Positions 44,747 through 60,915 of a DNA stretch of 64,000 nt are shown here, in pieces. The first letter of the stretch is position 1. Each line of letters starts with the position of its first letter. Source of the DNA: Muricomes intestini (GTDB lineage: Bacteria; Bacillota; Clostridia; Lachnospirales; Lachnospiraceae); the NCBI RefSeq assembly GCF_004346165.1, contig NZ_SLZZ01000003.1, positions 124,001 to 188,000 on the forward strand, in the 5' to 3' direction. The notes under the pieces are model-generated. The model was not told the DNA's origin. It worked only from the letters and a program-made list of their open reading frames with translations, and made no database searches. The translations under genes and the position numbers were made by a program.

Positions 44747-45313
44747 TTATTCAAACATATGGTTTAAAGCCTGTATTCTTTTATCTATTCCATGTTCTAT
44801 GATATATTCGCTCACGGTTTTGGGCACGTGCTGCTGCCATTCCAGACCTTCCGCAATCAATTGTCTTATTTCGGTTCCTGTAATCCCTCTTTCTTCCTCT
44901 ATCTTTCTCCAGAGAACCTCCGTCTCTAAGCCTAGCCTCTGCAGGATCTGACAGCGTTCTTCATCCCATTCGCTGCAGATACTCATAAAATAAACTGCAT
45001 CTCTTGGGGCATATTGAGTGATTAAGTCCGGCTGGCTCACAGGAAATGGAATCATCTCATATTCTTCTCTTTTCACGCCAAAATCAGTCAGGGCACCCTG
45101 TATCATCTCAAGACGTTCAAAATAGGTAAGGGGATTGTCCCGTTTTGTTGTTCCATGCAAATCCAATGCAGATGTTGCGGCAAAGGCGACAATATCCGAA
45201 TGTGTAATCCCGATATATAACTTCCTGCATCTCATTTTGGCTGCCAGTAAATACTCCATATGCTTTAAGTGAAAGATTTGAAACCTCCCATGTATAACCC
45301 CTGTGTCGACCAT
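44747..45313 (-). CDS. NadR/NMNAT-like nucleotidyltransferase
   Basis: A 188-residue alpha/beta phosphodiesterase-fold enzyme. The nucleotide motif is GRFQIFHLKHMEYLL (HxxH near residue 14) and the C-terminal motif is GITGTEIRQLIAEG, matching nicotinamide/nicotinate-nucleotide adenylyltransferases. The expected reaction is NMN plus ATP to NAD, but related cytidylyltransferases are not excluded. A GTG at 45316 precedes; the ATG at 45313 has AGGGGGA 7 bases upstream. Monocistronic. Confidence 0.82.
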   Translation of the reverse strand: MVDTGVIHGRFQIFHLKHMEYLLAAKMRCRKLYIGITHSDIVAFAATSALDLHGTTKRDNPLTYFERLEMIQGALTDFGVKREEYEMIPFPVSQPDLITQYAPRDAVYFMSICSEWDEERCQILQRLGLETEVLWRKIEEERGITGTEIRQLIAEGLEWQQHVPKTVSEYIIEHGIDKRIQALNHMFE

Positions 45314-45373
45314 CACTTGGTCCCCCTATCTCAGCCTTAAGCTGATTTTTCTCCTAAATATATATCAGCGAGG

Positions 45374-45725: not shown

Positions 45726-46202
45726 TTAGATTTCCATCTTTTTTCCGTCCAGGGCAGCATACTGCAGAATATCACTTTTATCATACACCAGCTTCAGGGA
45801 AAAGAATTCTCTGTCTTCCTCAATGAGGCGGAAAAAGATTTTGTCACCTTCCCAGATATTCAGTTCAAAAAGCTTTTTTTTATCCACCCATTCCAGCTCT
45901 CCCTCATCACAGGCTATGAGATCACCTGTAAAATCATCTGCTGTGTAAAGGGATATATATTCCACAACATCTTTCCCATATACAAAGGTCAAAATTCCAC
46001 GGTATTTATATGAAGTCAATGTATACCCCGTTTCTTCTTTTACTTCGCGCAGCAGGCATTCTTCAGGGCTTTCCCTTTCTTCAAAGTGTCCCCCTACACC
46101 TATCCATTTATCCTTGTTCACGTCATTTTTCTTAACTGTCCGATGTAACATCAGATAGCAGCCGTTTTTTTCAATATAACACAATGTACTTAACTTAAGC
46201 AT
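45726..46202 (-). CDS. NUDIX hydrolase (MutT-like)
   Basis: A 158-residue NUDIX enzyme. The NUDIX box is GGHFEERESPEECLLREVKE followed by ETGY (residues about 37-60), complete with the catalytic REVKEE core. The pattern KDKWIGVGGHFE and WVDKKKLFELN resembles 8-oxo-dGTP diphosphatases. Start: ATG at 46202 preferred over the GTG at 46211, which lies too close to the GAGGAG site. Substrate not certain. Confidence 0.9.
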   Translation of the reverse strand: MLKLSTLCYIEKNGCYLMLHRTVKKNDVNKDKWIGVGGHFEERESPEECLLREVKEETGYTLTSYKYRGILTFVYGKDVVEYISLYTADDFTGDLIACDEGELEWVDKKKLFELNIWEGDKIFFRLIEEDREFFSLKLVYDKSDILQYAALDGKKMEI

Positions 46203-46235
46203 CCTTATCACTTCTCCTCTTCCTTTTATCTTTCG

Positions 46236-47978
46236 TTATTCCGGAATGCTGTCCCGCACACAGAGCGCTCCATACCCCATTTGATTATTAGGCCACGCAT
46301 CAAATCCAGGAAGCTCCCGGGCCCCTCTGCGCAGATAGGCTTTTACCTTTTCACCATACAAATAGGGATCATTTCCGTTTATAATACCCCACTCCATCAA
46401 AAGCGCTGCCCCTCCTGTCACAAAAGGTGTCGAGAAGGATGTGCCGGTAACTTCCGTATATGTACCGCCGGGCACAACTGTGGTAACCCGCACTCCCGGG
46501 GCAACCAGATCTGGTTTCACCGTGGTGGAAAATGTTCCTGTAGGGAAAATGCCCCGGCCCGAAAAGTCTGCATAACTGAAGGTAAGTGCATCATACGCCC
46601 CTACAGTAATCACCCGAACAGCTGTGGATGGTATTGTGAGAGTTGCATCACTTCTTGGGAATAAAAACCCGGTTCCCTGATTCAATACTCCCTGGCTCGG
46701 CAGCCACATTTGGTATTCCCCCGTGACAACCCTTCTTGGTGTCAGTATAATCTGCCATTCTCCGCTGTTTATATATGAGTTCCTGGGAAGAAAATCTATA
46801 AAAATTTCCTGCTTCACACTATAGGGACTCGGTTCTCCATAATACAACAGTATTTCTGTCTGCCCCAGTACAAAACGCTGGGGACCGAGAATCTGCTGAA
46901 TCGGCCCCACCCTGACCCCTGAAGGACTTTCAATAGAAATGTCCACATCATCCACATAGGACTTCCATATCTGTACGCTGACCGTTGGTTCATTCATCTG
47001 TACCCCCAGCCGGACAATTTCTTCCGTTCCCTGTACAAGAATACCTGATGTGTGGCCGCTGCTGGTTCCCTCATTTCCACTGCCTACACTTATCGTAGTT
47101 CTTCCGTAGTTCGATATATCATCCAAAAATCTCTCCAGAAGAGAAGTTCCGTCATGAGGACCATATGTATTCCCGAAGCTGATATTTATTGATACCGGCA
47201 TCTGGTACTCTATTCCCTTCCTCACAGCATAATCTACGGCTTGCATCAGCTCTGTTGTTCTGGGGAAACTATCCTCCCTCGGGTTTCCCAGCTTGACAAT
47301 CAAAAGATCACTTTGCGGTGCCACACCCGCATTCTGTCTGCTTGGACTCCCTGCTCCGTTTCCGGCTGCAATTCCGGCTACCGAGGTCCCGTGCCCCGAC
47401 GTGTCCCTGCTTGGCACGATTTCTTCTCTGGCCGCTCTATTTTCCTGGCTCAGCGCCTCATTAATCTGATCCATAGTATATTCTGTTCCAATAGAATACC
47501 CCTCGGGAGGTGCGCCCGGTATGGCCTGGTCCCACAATGCTCTTATTCTCGTTGTCCCGTCATCATTCCTGAAATCCGCAAGGGTATAATCGATTCCGCT
47601 GTCCAGAACCGCAACCAAAACACCCCTGCCAGATAATGAAAAAGGAGCTTGCCGCACCTGATTGACGCAGGAAACTCGTATTCCGTTTATTACCTGAAAG
47701 AATAACATCTTTGGTTTTTCAATGTACTCTATCTGAGGAAGGGCCGCCAGTTCCTCAATTACAGACTCTCTAATTGTAATAATTGCATATTCATTTGACA
47801 GTTGTGTCACAGCCGTGGCCAAATCACGGACAGCATCCAGAGACCCGGAATACTTAATAATCAAGTCCCACTCTCTGTCAATAGGATTATATCCCACATC
47901 CAGTTCCCGCGATTTCTGCCTTTCCTCTTCTGTAGCGTCCAATGCAAGACTCAGCATATTTTCAGTTTTCTGACTCAT
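46236..47978 (-). CDS. Subtilisin-like serine protease (S8, CspABC-like) with intact triad
   Basis: A 580-residue S8 peptidase. A 115-residue N-terminal prodomain-like part precedes the catalytic domain: Asp126 (VAVLDSGIDY), His196 (DTSGHGTSVAG), Asn in SVGSGNEG, Ser514 (VTGTSFSTPFVTGG). A beta-rich insert (about 310-450) separates the Asn and Ser parts, as in CspB-type germination proteases and related gut clostridial proteases. No signal peptide is seen. Unlike its two relatives at 50740 and 52572, this copy should be active. Possible role in spore germination or extracellular proteolysis; not proven. Confidence 0.9.
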   Translation of the reverse strand: MSQKTENMLSLALDATEEERQKSRELDVGYNPIDREWDLIIKYSGSLDAVRDLATAVTQLSNEYAIITIRESVIEELAALPQIEYIEKPKMLFFQVINGIRVSCVNQVRQAPFSLSGRGVLVAVLDSGIDYTLADFRNDDGTTRIRALWDQAIPGAPPEGYSIGTEYTMDQINEALSQENRAAREEIVPSRDTSGHGTSVAGIAAGNGAGSPSRQNAGVAPQSDLLIVKLGNPREDSFPRTTELMQAVDYAVRKGIEYQMPVSINISFGNTYGPHDGTSLLERFLDDISNYGRTTISVGSGNEGTSSGHTSGILVQGTEEIVRLGVQMNEPTVSVQIWKSYVDDVDISIESPSGVRVGPIQQILGPQRFVLGQTEILLYYGEPSPYSVKQEIFIDFLPRNSYINSGEWQIILTPRRVVTGEYQMWLPSQGVLNQGTGFLFPRSDATLTIPSTAVRVITVGAYDALTFSYADFSGRGIFPTGTFSTTVKPDLVAPGVRVTTVVPGGTYTEVTGTSFSTPFVTGGAALLMEWGIINGNDPYLYGEKVKAYLRRGARELPGFDAWPNNQMGYGALCVRDSIPE

Positions 47979-49500: not shown

Positions 49501-50724
49501 ATGAAGAAGAATGCTATTGTCGGCCAATCCGGAGGGCCAACTGCAGTTATCAACGCCAGCCTGTACGGGGTCGTTTACGAGGTTCTCAACCGGGAAGATT
49601 CTTTTGGTACCATATATGGAATGATTAACGGTATAGAAGGATTTTTAAATGGCAGCTGCATGGATATGAAGCCACTTGAAATGTCAGGAGAATTAGAATA
49701 TATAAAGACTACCCCCGGCTCTTATCTGGGCTCCTGCAGATATAAGCTGCCTGAAGATTTAGATAATTCGGTATATGTCCGGTTATTTGACAAATTCCAA
49801 GAGATGAATATTGGATATTTTTTCTACATTGGGGGAAACGACTCCATGGATACTGTAAGTAAACTGTCCCGCCATGCAGCAAAAACAGGAAGTGATATCA
49901 AGGTAATTGGAATTCCCAAAACTATCGACAACGACCTGATAGAGACAGACCATACCCCGGGATTTGGCAGCGCTGCCAAATACATAGCGTCCACCGTCAG
50001 AGAGATCGCTGTTGATGCCTCAGTATATGATAATAAAAAATCAGTTACTATAGTGGAAATTATGGGGCGCCATGCCGGATGGCTGACTGCCGCAAGTTCC
50101 CTTGCCCGCAAATTTGAGGGAGATAACCCTGTTTTAATCTATCTCCCGGAAACTGATTTTAACCCCGAGCTGTTCCTGGAGAGTGTGGCAAAGACTTTGG
50201 AAACAACTCCCAATCTTGTTGTCTGCATTTCTGAGGGTATCCACGATGAAAACGGAACTTTTGTCTGTGAATTGGCCGGTGATGTAGGGATAGATGCCTT
50301 TGGCCACAAAATGCTGACAGGCTCCGGTAAGTATCTGGAGAATTTGGTGAAAACTCGTCTTGGGGTAAAGGTACGTTCCATCGAATTAAATGTCTGTCAA
50401 CGCTGTTCCTCTGCCATGCTTTCCGCCACAGATCAGAAAGAAGCCATTGCCTCCGGAGCCTACGGTGTAAAATGCGCTCTTGATGGTGAGACCGGTAAAA
50501 TGATTGCATTCAGGAGAATCCATAGCGAGCCTTATACTGTCGATTACGTCACCGCTGACGTAAATGTTGTCTGTAATCGGGAAAAGGCTGTTCCTCCTGA
50601 TTGGATTACAAAAGCGGGAACCGATGTCAGTGATAAGTTTCTCGCATATGCTAAGCCTCTGATTCAGGGACAGGTCAATATTCCTTTTGAAAATGGACTG
50701 CCCAAATTTGCATACAGAAAGTAA
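49501..50724 (+). CDS. pfp: Pyrophosphate-dependent 6-phosphofructokinase
   Basis: A 407-residue PFK. QSGGPTAVINASL is the phosphate loop. The donor-specificity positions read GGNDSMDT and IPKTIDNDL: an Asp in place of the Gly of ATP-type GGDGS, and Lys in PKTIDND where ATP enzymes have Gly. Both point to pyrophosphate as phosphoryl donor, making the step reversible. The MGRHAGWLTA and long C-terminal part fit the clade X/PFP long type. Own promoter, GGAGG 8 bases upstream. It converges on the pseudoprotease gene, 15 bases away. Confidence 0.9.
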   Translation: MKKNAIVGQSGGPTAVINASLYGVVYEVLNREDSFGTIYGMINGIEGFLNGSCMDMKPLEMSGELEYIKTTPGSYLGSCRYKLPEDLDNSVYVRLFDKFQEMNIGYFFYIGGNDSMDTVSKLSRHAAKTGSDIKVIGIPKTIDNDLIETDHTPGFGSAAKYIASTVREIAVDASVYDNKKSVTIVEIMGRHAGWLTAASSLARKFEGDNPVLIYLPETDFNPELFLESVAKTLETTPNLVVCISEGIHDENGTFVCELAGDVGIDAFGHKMLTGSGKYLENLVKTRLGVKVRSIELNVCQRCSSAMLSATDQKEAIASGAYGVKCALDGETGKMIAFRRIHSEPYTVDYVTADVNVVCNREKAVPPDWITKAGTDVSDKFLAYAKPLIQGQVNIPFENGLPKFAYRK

Positions 50725-50739
50725 GCATACTTCTTAGAG

Positions 50740-52410
50740 TTAAATGTAGGTCAGCAGTTGAAAAAGTGCATATACATTTAATTTTCCATACCCCCATATG
50801 TTATTGGGATAAACATACACAGGGTTCCTGGTTGCCCCCCGGATAATCAAGCCGTTCACATCTGTCCCTGTAAGAGAAGAATAATTTCCCCGGGCAACTG
50901 CCCATTCAAAAACAATAGCAACAGCACCTGCCGCATGGGCGGCAGCTGCTCCGGTTCCCGTTACAGTAGTATAGAGTCCGCCCGGGGCAGCACAGGGCAG
51001 CTGATTGCCCGGAGCGGCGGTATCTGGCTTAACACTGCCTAATCTTGTATATCCCCGGCTGGAGTCTATTATAATGCTCCCTGTATTCTGATCATAGGCA
51101 GATACAGTCAGTGCATGCCCTGCATTGCCCGGAGAAGTGATTGTCGTGTCCGGAGATGAGAGCAGAAAAAAGGTTTCATCCGAAATAAACTCACCATTTG
51201 GCAGCCAGCTGTGAAAGGAAAAAGGAACTGCATCAATGTTAGTGACACGTATACGCCAGATTCCTTCTGCTGCATTCTCAAAACGAACCAGTATAAGCTG
51301 ACTTCCATTTTCCTCCTCTATGAGTATATTATTCACCCACATCTGGGTCTGGCTAAATACGAACTGATGGTTGACACAGGTTCCGATGGACGGGTAAATA
51401 GCAGCTGTCATTTCCCCCGAAGGTGCCACAATCTGTATAGATAATCTTGCCTGAATATCAGGCCATATCTCAAAAGAGAAAAGAGGATCTCTTGGAGATA
51501 CCTTCAGTTCAAATTCCTGGTTATATGGGGCGGTACGCACATTTCCGTAGTAATGTCTGTTGTTATTTCCTTCATTCCCGGCGGCAACTACGAAATCCAC
51601 TTGTGAAAGCTGTGAAAGAAAATCTACGTTACTGCTTGTTGCCCCTACTCCCTCGTGTCCTGTCAGGCTTGCCGCCAGTCCAATACAAATCACAATCGGC
51701 ATGCCCAGCCTTTGCGCGGTCCTATATATATAACGTATCCCAAGCAGAATATCTGTTTCCTGGTAACACACTACATTCTCCTGAACACAGAAAATCCTGC
51801 GTAAATTTTGTTTTGCTTCCTTTAATTTTACCACCAGCAGCTGCGATCTCGGAACTACACCTCTAAATGAGTTTTCAGGGCTTGGACTCCCTGCTGCAAC
51901 GCTGGCCAGAGCTGTCCCATGTCCATTTTCATCAACAGTTGGCACTATAGAAAGCGGATCTTCTGCTTGTAGTGCACTGTTGATAGCCTGATTATCATAT
52001 TCCGCGCCATAAGTAAAGCCCTCAGGCACATCCCCATTCTGAATTGTCTGATCCCAGATAGAAACAATGCGGGAGGAATTACCTTCATCTCTAAACGCAG
52101 GATGAGTATAGTCAATTCCTGTATCAATGATTCCTACAAGAACCCCTGTGCCCAGCAGCGCAAGAGTAGGGTTAGACTGTATCGGTGATATATTGGAGCT
52201 GTCAAGACTCAATTGTGATGCCAGAGTATATAATGTGGGAAATCTGGGATAAGAATATAAGCCAAGATCACACATATTAAAATTGCTCATTTGCACATGG
52301 AGTATAGAATGCCTGTCATTGATAGGGGTAATATTTTCCCTTTGGCTTTCCTGCACGATCGTATTATTAATTAGAAAGTCATAATAATTTTCATCTAAAA
52401 TTTTTTCCAT
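50740..52410 (-). CDS. CspC-like S8 pseudoprotease, copy 1 (catalytic Ser replaced by Gly)
   Basis: A 556-residue S8 subtilase fold. Asp96 (VGIIDTGIDYTHPAF) and His164 (DENGHGTALASVAAG) are intact, as is the oxyanion Asn (VAAGNEGNNN). The serine motif GTSxAxP reads VTGTGAAAAHAAG: residue 487, the nucleophile, is Gly and the conserved Pro is Ala. It should therefore not be a protease. CspC of Clostridioides difficile, a germination signalling pseudoprotease, is also reported to carry Gly at this position. No signal peptide. Very similar to the next gene along the whole length, so a recent duplication. A sensory or regulatory role is inferred. Confidence 0.85.
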   Translation of the reverse strand: MEKILDENYYDFLINNTIVQESQRENITPINDRHSILHVQMSNFNMCDLGLYSYPRFPTLYTLASQLSLDSSNISPIQSNPTLALLGTGVLVGIIDTGIDYTHPAFRDEGNSSRIVSIWDQTIQNGDVPEGFTYGAEYDNQAINSALQAEDPLSIVPTVDENGHGTALASVAAGSPSPENSFRGVVPRSQLLVVKLKEAKQNLRRIFCVQENVVCYQETDILLGIRYIYRTAQRLGMPIVICIGLAASLTGHEGVGATSSNVDFLSQLSQVDFVVAAGNEGNNNRHYYGNVRTAPYNQEFELKVSPRDPLFSFEIWPDIQARLSIQIVAPSGEMTAAIYPSIGTCVNHQFVFSQTQMWVNNILIEEENGSQLILVRFENAAEGIWRIRVTNIDAVPFSFHSWLPNGEFISDETFFLLSSPDTTITSPGNAGHALTVSAYDQNTGSIIIDSSRGYTRLGSVKPDTAAPGNQLPCAAPGGLYTTVTGTGAAAAHAAGAVAIVFEWAVARGNYSSLTGTDVNGLIIRGATRNPVYVYPNNIWGYGKLNVYALFQLLTYI

Positions 52411-52515
52411 CTCTCACCCATAACCGGTACTGATAACCTTGGCATTTCACTATCTGTCCTGTTTCATTTAGTTTAAGGCCACTACGGCAGTATCCCAGTT
52501 TATAATTAAATATTT

Positions 52516-52552
52516 ATTGATAATTATGTATTCAAAAAGATAAGTATACCTG
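52516..52552 (-). promoter_or_regulatory. Conserved upstream element of pseudoprotease copy 1
   Basis: GATAATTATGTATTCAAAAA then GATAAGTATACCTG (plus-strand reading). An almost identical block lies at 54346-54382 upstream of copy 2, while the DNA around it differs. Conserved noncoding sequence upstream of both copies suggests a shared promoter or operator. Confidence 0.5.
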
Positions 52553-52571
52553 ATAAACATATTCCACAACA

Positions 52572-54242
52572 CTAAATAAAAGTCAGCAACTCGAAAAGAG
52601 CATAAGCATTTAACATTCCATATCCCCATATATTGTTGGGATAAATGTATACCGGGTTTCTGGCTGCCCCACGGATAATCATGCTATTGATATTTGCCCC
52701 TGTAAGAGTTAGATAATTTTCTCTGGAAACAGCCCATTCAAAAATCATGGCAGCCGCACCTGCTGCATGGGCAGCCGCGGCGCCTGTTCCCGTTACAGTA
52801 GCATAACGGCCGCCGGGAGCAGCACAGGGCAGCTGATAGCCCGGAGCAGCAATATCAGGCTTAACACTGCCAAGCCGTGTATATCCCCTGCCGGATTCTA
52901 TCAGGATACTCCCATTATTCTGGTTGTAGGCAGTTGTAGTTAACACATGCACTGCATTGCCCGGAGATGTAATAGTCGTGTCAGGAGAAGAAAGCAAAAA
53001 AAAGGTTTCATTTGAAATAAAATCTCCATTGGGCAGCCAGCTGTGAAAAGAGAAGGGAGTTTCATCAATGTTGTTGACACGTATACGCCAGATTCCTTCT
53101 GTTGCATCCGCAAAACGCACCAGTATAATCTGGCCTCCGCTTTCCTCCTCTATAAGGATATTATTTACCCACATCTGAGTTTGGCTGAATACAAACTGGT
53201 GATTAAAACATGTCCCGAGGGACGGATAAATAACCTGTGTCATCTCCCCTGTGGGGGCAATCACCTGTATAGATAGTCTTGCCTGAATATCAGGCCATAT
53301 CTCAAAAGCAAAAAGCGGGTCTCTGGGAGATACCTTGAGTTCAAATTCCTGATTAAACGGCGAAGAATCCACATTTCCATAATAATGTCTGTTGTTATTC
53401 CCTTCATTCCCTGCAGAAACAACAGCATCCACTTGTGAAACCTGTGAAATGAAATCCAGATAACTGCTTGTCGCCTCATTTCCCTCATGCGACGCCAGGC
53501 TCGCCCCGAGCCCAAGGCAGATTACAACTGGCATATTCAGCCTTCGTGCAGTAGCATATATATAACGTGCCCCCAGTACAACATCCGTTTCCTGATAACA
53601 TACCACCTCTTCCGGAATACAAAAGATTCTGCGTAAATTTTGTTTTGCTTGTTTTAGCTTTACTACTATCAGTTGGGATCTTGGGACAACACCTCTAAAT
53701 CCCCCATCAGGTGAAGGACTGCCTGCCGCAACGCTGGCCAGTGCCGTTCCATGCCCATTCTCATCGGCAGAGGGTACTATAGAAAGCGGCTCCTCAGACC
53801 CCAAAGCAAGATTAAGCTCCTGGTTATCATATTCCGTACCATAAGTAAATCCCTCAGGCACTGTCCCCCCCTGAATTGTCTGATCCCAAATAAAGGCAAT
53901 TCTCGAAGAATTGTCTGCATTTTTAAATGCAGGATGGGTATAATCAATCCCCGTATCAATAATTCCAACAAGAACCCCTGCTCCCAGTAATGCAAGAGAC
54001 GGGTTAGACTGTATCTGGGATATGTTGGAGCTGTCAAGACTCAATTTTGATGACAGGGTGAGTAATGACGGAAATCTGTGATAAGGATACAAGCCAAGAT
54101 CACACATGTTAAAATCACTCATTTGTACATGAAGTATAGAATGCCTGTCATTAATATGAGTGATGTTTTCCCTTTGGCTTTCTTGCACTATTGTATTATT
54201 AATTAAAAAGTCATAATAATTCTCATCTAAGATTTTTTCCAT
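52572..54242 (-). CDS. CspC-like S8 pseudoprotease, copy 2 (catalytic Ser replaced by Gly)
   Basis: A 556-residue near-twin of the preceding entry, with the same length, Asp96, His164, and the same degenerate serine motif VTGTGAAAAHAAG (Gly487). Most differences are scattered and conservative (for example HINDRH for PINDRH, LTLSSK for YTLASQ), so both copies are under selection and the Gly change predates the duplication. The ribosome sites before both ATGs are weak (GGGTGAAG here). It is transcribed before copy 1, with a 161-base gap that includes a conserved element. Confidence 0.85.
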   Translation of the reverse strand: MEKILDENYYDFLINNTIVQESQRENITHINDRHSILHVQMSDFNMCDLGLYPYHRFPSLLTLSSKLSLDSSNISQIQSNPSLALLGAGVLVGIIDTGIDYTHPAFKNADNSSRIAFIWDQTIQGGTVPEGFTYGTEYDNQELNLALGSEEPLSIVPSADENGHGTALASVAAGSPSPDGGFRGVVPRSQLIVVKLKQAKQNLRRIFCIPEEVVCYQETDVVLGARYIYATARRLNMPVVICLGLGASLASHEGNEATSSYLDFISQVSQVDAVVSAGNEGNNNRHYYGNVDSSPFNQEFELKVSPRDPLFAFEIWPDIQARLSIQVIAPTGEMTQVIYPSLGTCFNHQFVFSQTQMWVNNILIEEESGGQIILVRFADATEGIWRIRVNNIDETPFSFHSWLPNGDFISNETFFLLSSPDTTITSPGNAVHVLTTTAYNQNNGSILIESGRGYTRLGSVKPDIAAPGYQLPCAAPGGRYATVTGTGAAAAHAAGAAAMIFEWAVSRENYLTLTGANINSMIIRGAARNPVYIYPNNIWGYGMLNAYALFELLTFI

Positions 54243-54345: not shown

Positions 54346-54382
54346 TAGATAATTATGTATTGAAAAGGATAAGTATGCCTGC
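54346..54382 (-). promoter_or_regulatory. Conserved upstream element of pseudoprotease copy 2
   Basis: GATAATTATGTATTGAAAAG then GATAAGTATGCCTG, the counterpart of 52516-52552. About 105 bases upstream of the ATG in both cases. Confidence 0.5.
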
Positions 54383-60141: not shown

Positions 60142-60222
60142 TGCGGATGACAGGATTTGAACCTGCACGTCGGGGACACTAGATCCTAAGTCTAGCGCGT
60201 CTGCCAATTCCGCCACATCCGC
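60142..60222 (-). tRNA. tRNA-Leu (anticodon TAG)
   Basis: Acceptor GCGGATG/CATCCGC, discriminator A; anticodon stem CTAGA/TCTAG around loop CTTAGGA; short variable arm typical of class II Leu tRNA. Last tRNA of the seven-gene transcript. Confidence 0.94.
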
Positions 60223-60296
60223 TTATGCTTCTTGCTGCAACTTCCGCCGGTATAATATGATAAAAAATTAGAACAAGCACCTCTGTCTTGTTCCAA

Positions 60297-60369
60297 TGAG
60301 CGTGCGGGGATTCGAACCCCGGACAACTTGATTAAAAGTCAAGTGCTCTACCACCTGAGCTACACGCCC
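60297..60369 (-). tRNA. tRNA-Lys (anticodon TTT)
   Basis: Acceptor GGGCGTG/CACGCTC, discriminator A; anticodon stem CTTGA/TCAAG around loop CTTTTAA; T loop GTTCGAAT. Confidence 0.95.
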
Positions 60370-60406
60370 ATATAATATCTGGTTACCCGTGCTTTGTACA
60401 GGTGAA

Positions 60407-60478
60407 CTGGGCTAGCTGGATTCGAACCAGCGAATGCAGGAGTCAAAGTCCTGTGCCTTACCGCTTGGCGATAGCCCA
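60407..60478 (-). tRNA. tRNA-Gln (anticodon TTG)
   Basis: Acceptor TGGGCTA/TAGCCCA, discriminator G; anticodon stem CAGGA/TCCTG around loop CTTTGAC. A second Gln tRNA (CTG) lies at 12957. Confidence 0.95.
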
Positions 60479-60525
60479 TTAGAGACTTATATCCGACACT
60501 GCGTTGCCAATAGCTAAAAATATAG

Positions 60526-60600
60526 GGTGGGTAATGGGACTCGAACCCATGATATCCAGAACCACAATCTGGCGCGCTAACCAACTGCACCATACCCACC
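60526..60600 (-). tRNA. tRNA-His (anticodon GTG)
   Basis: Acceptor with the extra 5' G of His tRNAs (G-GTGGGTA paired with TACCCAC-C); anticodon stem CCAGA/TCTGG around loop TTGTGGT. Confidence 0.94.
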
Positions 60601-60604
60601 ACAG

Positions 60605-60678
60605 CGAGCCTGGGGGGATTCGAACCCTCGACCTACGGCTTAGAAGGCCGTTGCTCTATCCAACTGAGCTACAGACTC
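60605..60678 (-). tRNA. tRNA-Arg (anticodon TCT)
   Basis: Acceptor GAGTCTG/CAGGCTC (one G-U), discriminator G; anticodon stem ACGGC/GCCGT around loop CTTCTAA. Confidence 0.94.
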
Positions 60679-60729
60679 TTATGCAGTTATCCCCTGCTCT
60701 TAAGTTCTTGCACTTATAGGCTGCAAGAA

Positions 60730-60800
60730 AGCGGGTGATGGGAATCGAACCCACGTATCTAGCTTGGAAGGCTAGTGTTCTACCATTGAACTACACCCGC
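60730..60800 (-). tRNA. tRNA-Gly (anticodon TCC)
   Basis: Acceptor GCGGGTG/CACCCGC, discriminator T; anticodon stem CTAGC/GCTAG around loop CTTCCAA. Confidence 0.95.
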
Positions 60801-60804
60801 ACTA

Positions 60805-60879
60805 TCGGGGTGACAGGATTCGAACCTGCGACCTCCTGGTCCCAAACCAGGCGCTCTAGCCAAGCTGAGCCACACCCCG
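60805..60879 (-). tRNA. tRNA-Pro (anticodon TGG)
   Basis: Acceptor CGGGGTG/CACCCCG, discriminator A; anticodon stem CCTGG/CCAGG around loop TTTGGGA. First tRNA after the promoter. Confidence 0.95.
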
Positions 60880-60915
60880 ATATTAAATGTGTCATTTCTC
60901 CGTGACACAATAACT

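Follow-up and report, generated by a model that had tools for sequence, protein, structure and literature searches.

A tandem pair of Csp-family subtilases in Muricomes intestini, found within the 64,000-nucleotide stretch that we analyzed (the window), carries Gly in place of the catalytic Ser in both copies. These proteins are probably catalytically dead Csp regulators, made in the mother cell and located in the spore, that would act together with CspB on the activation of pro-SleC at germination. Sequence-based support for this role comes from their family, their fold, the missing nucleophile, purifying selection, the promoter type, and the presence of CspB and SleC in the same genome. Trees of related proteins indicate, in addition, that Ser-to-Gly Csps arose separately, several times, in the Lachnospiraceae.

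Active site, family and fold of the tandem pair

The two S8 open reading frames are indeed present as initially annotated: copy 1 (52572..54242) and copy 2 (50740..52410), both on the minus strand, each encode 556 residues. In alignments, both copies retain Asp96, His164 and the oxyanion Asn (N279), and both have Gly487 where the nucleophilic Ser is expected, also in agreement with that annotation. In an alignment with the gene at 46236-47978, whose triad is complete, the Ser motif of both reads GTGAAAAHAAG; computed from the ORF starts and this alignment, codon 487 lies at 52782..52784 in copy 1 and at 50950..50952 in copy 2 (minus strand in each case). The Ala that replaces the motif Pro had been described as a further part of the damaged site, and it is there, but it plays no part in the catalytic loss: Csp relatives that keep the Ser also read GT[S]xAAAH, so we discarded the Pro-to-Ala change as an element of inactivation and regard it as a trait of the clade. 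The copies also proved less alike than the "near-identical" of the initial annotation, with 80.4% identity and a dS of 0.88, and the duplication is therefore old rather than recent.

The genome as a whole encodes three Ser-to-Gly Csps (two in the window and one elsewhere), CspB, and one more Csp with Asp, His and Ser. The neighbor of the third Ser-to-Gly gene encodes a collagen-like protein of the spore-surface type that contains a BclA_C domain. We refer to the Ser-to-Gly proteins as pseudo-Csps. A plasmid origin for the region of the window was considered and dropped, as there was no near match.

Family membership and kinship with Clostridioides difficile CspA and CspC are supported by both sequence and structure matches. 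Pfam reports Peptidase_S8 (PF00082, 2e-26) as the sole domain of each copy; the CspB prodomain PF18425 was not detected in them by Pfam and, among these three Csps, is present in the gene at 46236 alone. The nearest NCBIfam models are the CspA half of CspBA and CspC, with scores far under the curated cut-offs (285-302 bits against 1250 for CspBA; 266 and 277 bits against 675 for CspC). Sequence matches in the PDB rank C. difficile CspA (9pr8, 4e-70) ahead of C. difficile CspB, C. perfringens CspB and C. difficile CspC. AlphaFold2, given a 31-row alignment, predicts a confident model (pLDDT 88, pTM 0.90) with a small N-terminal domain at residues 1-68, the predicted prodomain of copy 1, followed by the subtilase domain with a central jelly-roll insert. 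The best Foldseek matches to this model are CspC (6mw4, 2.6e-50, TM 0.85), CspA (9pr9) and the CspC:CspA complex (9pr8), and the TM scores against the CspA structures are 0.80-0.84. Between Pfam, AlphaFold2 and Foldseek, the pseudo-Csps thus display the S8 domain, the central jelly-roll insert and the N-terminal prodomain that define the Csp family.

Distribution, origins and selection

Our survey set consisted of Csp sequences from Lachnospiraceae and other Clostridia. Asp and His combined with Gly at the Ser position were found in 52 rows (51 distinct), Cys at that position in five, and all three catalytic residues in 159. The Gly types use all four Gly codons and have the oxyanion Asn in 51 of the 52 rows. 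Neither chance nor an assembly error accounts for the Ser-to-Gly change, because a second species of the genus carries both tandem copies as well, and all 51 relatives have Gly at this site, encoded between them by all four Gly codons.

Several other architectures turned up in the survey, and we record them here by our locus labels. The Cys codon of the five exceptions (L066, L113, L114, L146 and L224) is TGC or TGT; these proteins may act as thiol proteases or represent another class of inactive Csp. An Anaerocolumna Csp (L131:9080-10792) has Gln for the catalytic His and retains the Ser. Four consecutive Ser-to-Gly Csp genes occur at L070:6297-13350 and at L121:2887-9846. A 1780-residue open frame in another Clostridia genome (G219, L230:4315-9654) contains three complete, consecutive Csp domains, and in a different family of the class (f43) fusions of 1145-1189 residues (L196, L197 and L199, from G247, G340 and G191) keep Asp, His and Ser in their second domain.

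Trees were built with the motif columns excluded, from sets that did not include C. difficile CspC. In the 205-row tree, 38 Gly types and one Cys type, the window genes among them, form one fully supported clade spanning Faecalicatena, Lacrimispora, Kineothrix and others, and the remaining Gly types are scattered among Ser-keeping Csps. The 53-row IQ-TREE gives this main clade a support of 100 and needs six further changes for the scattered Gly types, at least five of them forced by starred branches. Topology tests rejected the idea that the Gly-type Csps of the Lachnospiraceae all go back to one origin (p 9e-51, with the late group named after the first tree had been viewed), and also a tree in which C. 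difficile CspA groups with the main clade (AU test, p = 0.0003). The orientation of the residue changes is uncertain, and in some cases Ser may have been regained. The initial annotation had likened the pair to the C. difficile pseudo-Csps; the kinship stands, but the loss of the Ser does not go back to shared ancestry, as judged from the residue pattern, the tree and the AU test.

The comparison of synonymous and nonsynonymous changes that had been proposed for the two copies gives a dN/dS of 0.13 between them and 0.11-0.16 when orthologues are included (NG86), which indicates purifying selection. By the same method, other pseudo-Csp pairs have values of at most 0.19, CspB 0.09-0.11 and the Ser-keeping Csp 0.13. 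With Gly487 in both copies, this constraint lends support to the earlier suggestion of selection for a non-catalytic role.

Genomic context and probable role in germination

The third S8 gene, which had been noted 2.8 kb from the pair with its triad complete, can now be identified as CspB (46236..47978, minus strand) by its PF18425 prodomain (2.3e-33); it has the full triad Asp126/His196/Ser514 and is presumably the active partner. Between it and the pseudo-Csps lies an unrelated gene for diphosphate--fructose-6-phosphate 1-phosphotransferase (49501..50724, plus strand). We compared four members of the genus, G000-G003, the window genome included. The tandem pair is retained in G002; in G001 and G003 the pseudo-Csp and CspB genes are a few kilobases apart on a single contig, as in the window; and a 407-residue ORF, in G001 of phosphofructokinase size, occupies the intervening place in G001 and G002 as it does here. 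On its other side, CspB adjoins a NUDIX hydrolase (45726..46211, minus strand), with an NMN adenylyltransferase-like protein of the archaeal NadM type further downstream (44747-45316); both neighbors are conserved in G002, and we do not claim the NUDIX hydrolase as a component of the system. A cluster of seven tRNA genes lies elsewhere in the window (60142-60880, minus strand).

Each copy is preceded by a block of the form GNATACTTATC-N(9)-ACATAATNATC, also found upstream of the orthologues in all four genus members. For copy 1 this sigma-E-type block (GCATACTTATC..ACATAATTATC) is at 54348..54378 and for copy 2 at 52519..52549, both on the minus strand and both with an ATA - 16 bp - CATA arrangement; the window has these two matches, against 0 expected from shuffles. 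The resemblance to sigma-E sites was judged against the C. difficile consensus, in which the -35 element is ATA and a spacing of 16-18 bp is called classical, and the C. difficile csp operon itself has a sigma-E promoter and is sigma-E dependent (PMC3789822). Using a pattern that we defined ourselves, we found sigma-E-like sites upstream of 11 of the 52 Gly-type genes (0.2 expected), many of these being orthologues of one another; the same scan gave no clear site upstream of CspB.

The host is a spore-forming member of the Lachnospiraceae and belongs to the same genus as Faecalicatena contorta. It has both CspB and a SleC homologue, of whose 426 residues 21-425 match solved pre-pro-SleC (9h68, 1.9e-135), and SpoIVA is present in all four genus genomes. 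Taken with the sigma-E-type promoter and the BclA-type gene, these make the link to sporulation suggested in the initial annotation appear sound. Of the membrane receptors, GerAC (PF05504) was detected in none of the four members, and GerAB (PF03845) was not detected in two of them, the window genome included, the weak matches (1e-7) in the other two being possibly other permeases. One orphan GerA-type gene occurs in each of G000 and G002 (L226:8273-9640 is the locus given for the orphan protein). A nutrient sensor other than a Csp is therefore possible, given this orphan and the precedent of C. botulinum group II, in which germination with L-alanine is reported to require an orphan GerA-type protein (PMC5935672). 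Pseudo-Csps are not confined to genomes devoid of Ger proteins across the family, as six related genomes (G027, G036, G056, G084, G129 and G148) carry them together with the GerA/B/C families.

In C. difficile, CspC and CspA regulate the activation of SleC by CspB. By analogy, the mother cell would produce the pseudo-Csps as it sporulates and deposit them in the spore; at germination, CspB would activate the cortex hydrolase pro-SleC, with the pseudo-Csps as non-cleaving regulators of that step. They may do so in physical partnership with CspB or other Csp paralogues, and may also take in a signal. We slightly favor an input role, meaning reception or transduction of a germinant or co-germinant as for CspC:CspA, over a pure scaffold, because pseudo-Csps are multiplied (three in the window genome, five in F. 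contorta) in a genus with no detectable GerAC or convincing GerAB.

We consider it rather unlikely that the pseudo-Csps receive no signal and serve purely as structural or inhibitory partners, stabilizing CspB, holding it in check or helping other Csps into the spore as chaperones. Gene arrangement gives this idea some weight: of the Gly-type genes whose flanks are in view, 24 have another non-B Csp as a tandem neighbor and 14 stand alone (27 and 35, respectively, for Ser-type genes). Moreover, in the ancient paralogue pairs of one lineage, Ser is present in the first gene in 8/8 cases, whereas the second has lost it to Gly in 5/8. There is precedent too, as scaffold roles of pseudoenzymes have been described and the incorporation of C. 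difficile CspC into spores needs CspA (PMC12880746). However, a partnership of this kind leaves unexplained the several divergent pseudo-Csps in a genus that lacks detectable GerAC and convincing GerAB, and scaffold and sensor roles can coexist.

That the proteins still cleave substrates, through another residue or by substrate-assisted catalysis, seems very improbable: retention of Asp, His and the oxyanion Asn throughout the Gly group would fit such activity, as would the five Cys-bearing relatives if they are thiol proteases, but the old clade has Gly in 38 of its 39 members (and Cys in one), and neither Ser nor Cys was found in the aligned motif of the window copies. We give almost no credence to the idea that they are functionless, decaying duplicates. 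The catalytic residue is gone from both copies, as decay could bring about, yet the neutral decay that the initial annotation had named as grounds for abandoning its proposal is not seen: the frames are intact in two species, dN/dS is low, the promoter block is conserved, the fold is predicted with confidence and the old clade covers many genera. A regulatory role alongside CspB remains our preferred reading; weighing against it are the orphan GerA-type protein, the co-occurrence of pseudo-Csps with the GerA/B/C families in related genomes, the unconserved C. difficile heterodimer contacts, the lack of a clear sigma-E site upstream of CspB and the absence of YabG.

Relation to known Csp systems

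According to two papers, one of 2019 and one of 2026, every Csp of the Lachnospiraceae is catalytically intact and Csp pseudoproteases are special to the Peptostreptococcaceae (PMC6636752, PMC12880746); the survey underlying the statement on intact triads is Kevorkian 2016, as cited by both. Our survey contradicts this view as it is presented in those two papers. Proteins of this kind were known; new, as far as the examined literature shows, are the family in which they occur here, their residue pattern of Ser-to-Gly alone, and their separate origin on repeated occasions.

A broader interpretation, whose chances we put somewhat short of even, is that the Lachnospiraceae evolved soluble pseudoprotease germinant sensors of their own, independently of C. 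difficile and repeatedly, each time by exchanging Ser for Gly while retaining Asp and His. In Faecalicatena, such sensors would stand in for the membrane GerA/B/C receptors, so that the environment would be sensed via dead proteases. Spores of gut Lachnospiraceae germinate with bile acids (PMC7490687, PMC8401671), and the proteins bear on how they sense these and other signals. Recurrent Ser-to-Gly change in an otherwise intact site would turn pseudoprotease signaling into a general, recurrent solution in Clostridia rather than an oddity of C. difficile. The repeated changes also offer many natural replicates for comparing sensor with protease members.

None of the four genus genomes gave a match to YabG (PF05582), described as a sporulation signature protease, though a Bacillus subtilis control did. 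C. difficile CspA, the pseudoprotease half of CspBA (9pr8, 9pr9), is made fused to CspB, whereas the window genes are separate in a host lacking YabG. CspA and the window copies have in common the Csp fold, a dead protease, an SAHAAGA-like stretch past the Ser position and the company of CspB and SleC; the substitutions differ, CspA having Gln for His and Ala for Ser. We had to discard conserved heterodimer contacts as proof of pairing: the equivalents of the CspC:CspA interface residues that could be mapped (R896, D1008, R1036, Q1094 and T1098 of C. difficile) are not conserved in the window copies, and any pairing would therefore use different contacts.

C. difficile CspC (6mw4), the proposed bile-acid receptor, is the closest match in fold and has Gly at the Ser position (G485), as the window copies do. 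A short, uncleaved prodomain is expected as a further shared feature. CspC and the window protein are about 26% identical in the Foldseek alignment, and CspC has also lost the His (T170). Like those of CspA and CspC, the triad of the window copies is broken, here by Gly487, whereas His164, and the His of all Gly-type relatives found, is retained. C. perfringens CspB and the window CspB are subtilases with a jelly-roll insert and the same catalytic geometry as the pseudo-Csps, but the CspBs have the full triad, and the window CspB has PF18425 as well. Ser-keeping Lachnospiraceae Csps, such as the C6 gene of this genome, belong to the same non-CspB clade as the window pair and have also lost the motif Pro, but they retain the catalytic Ser.
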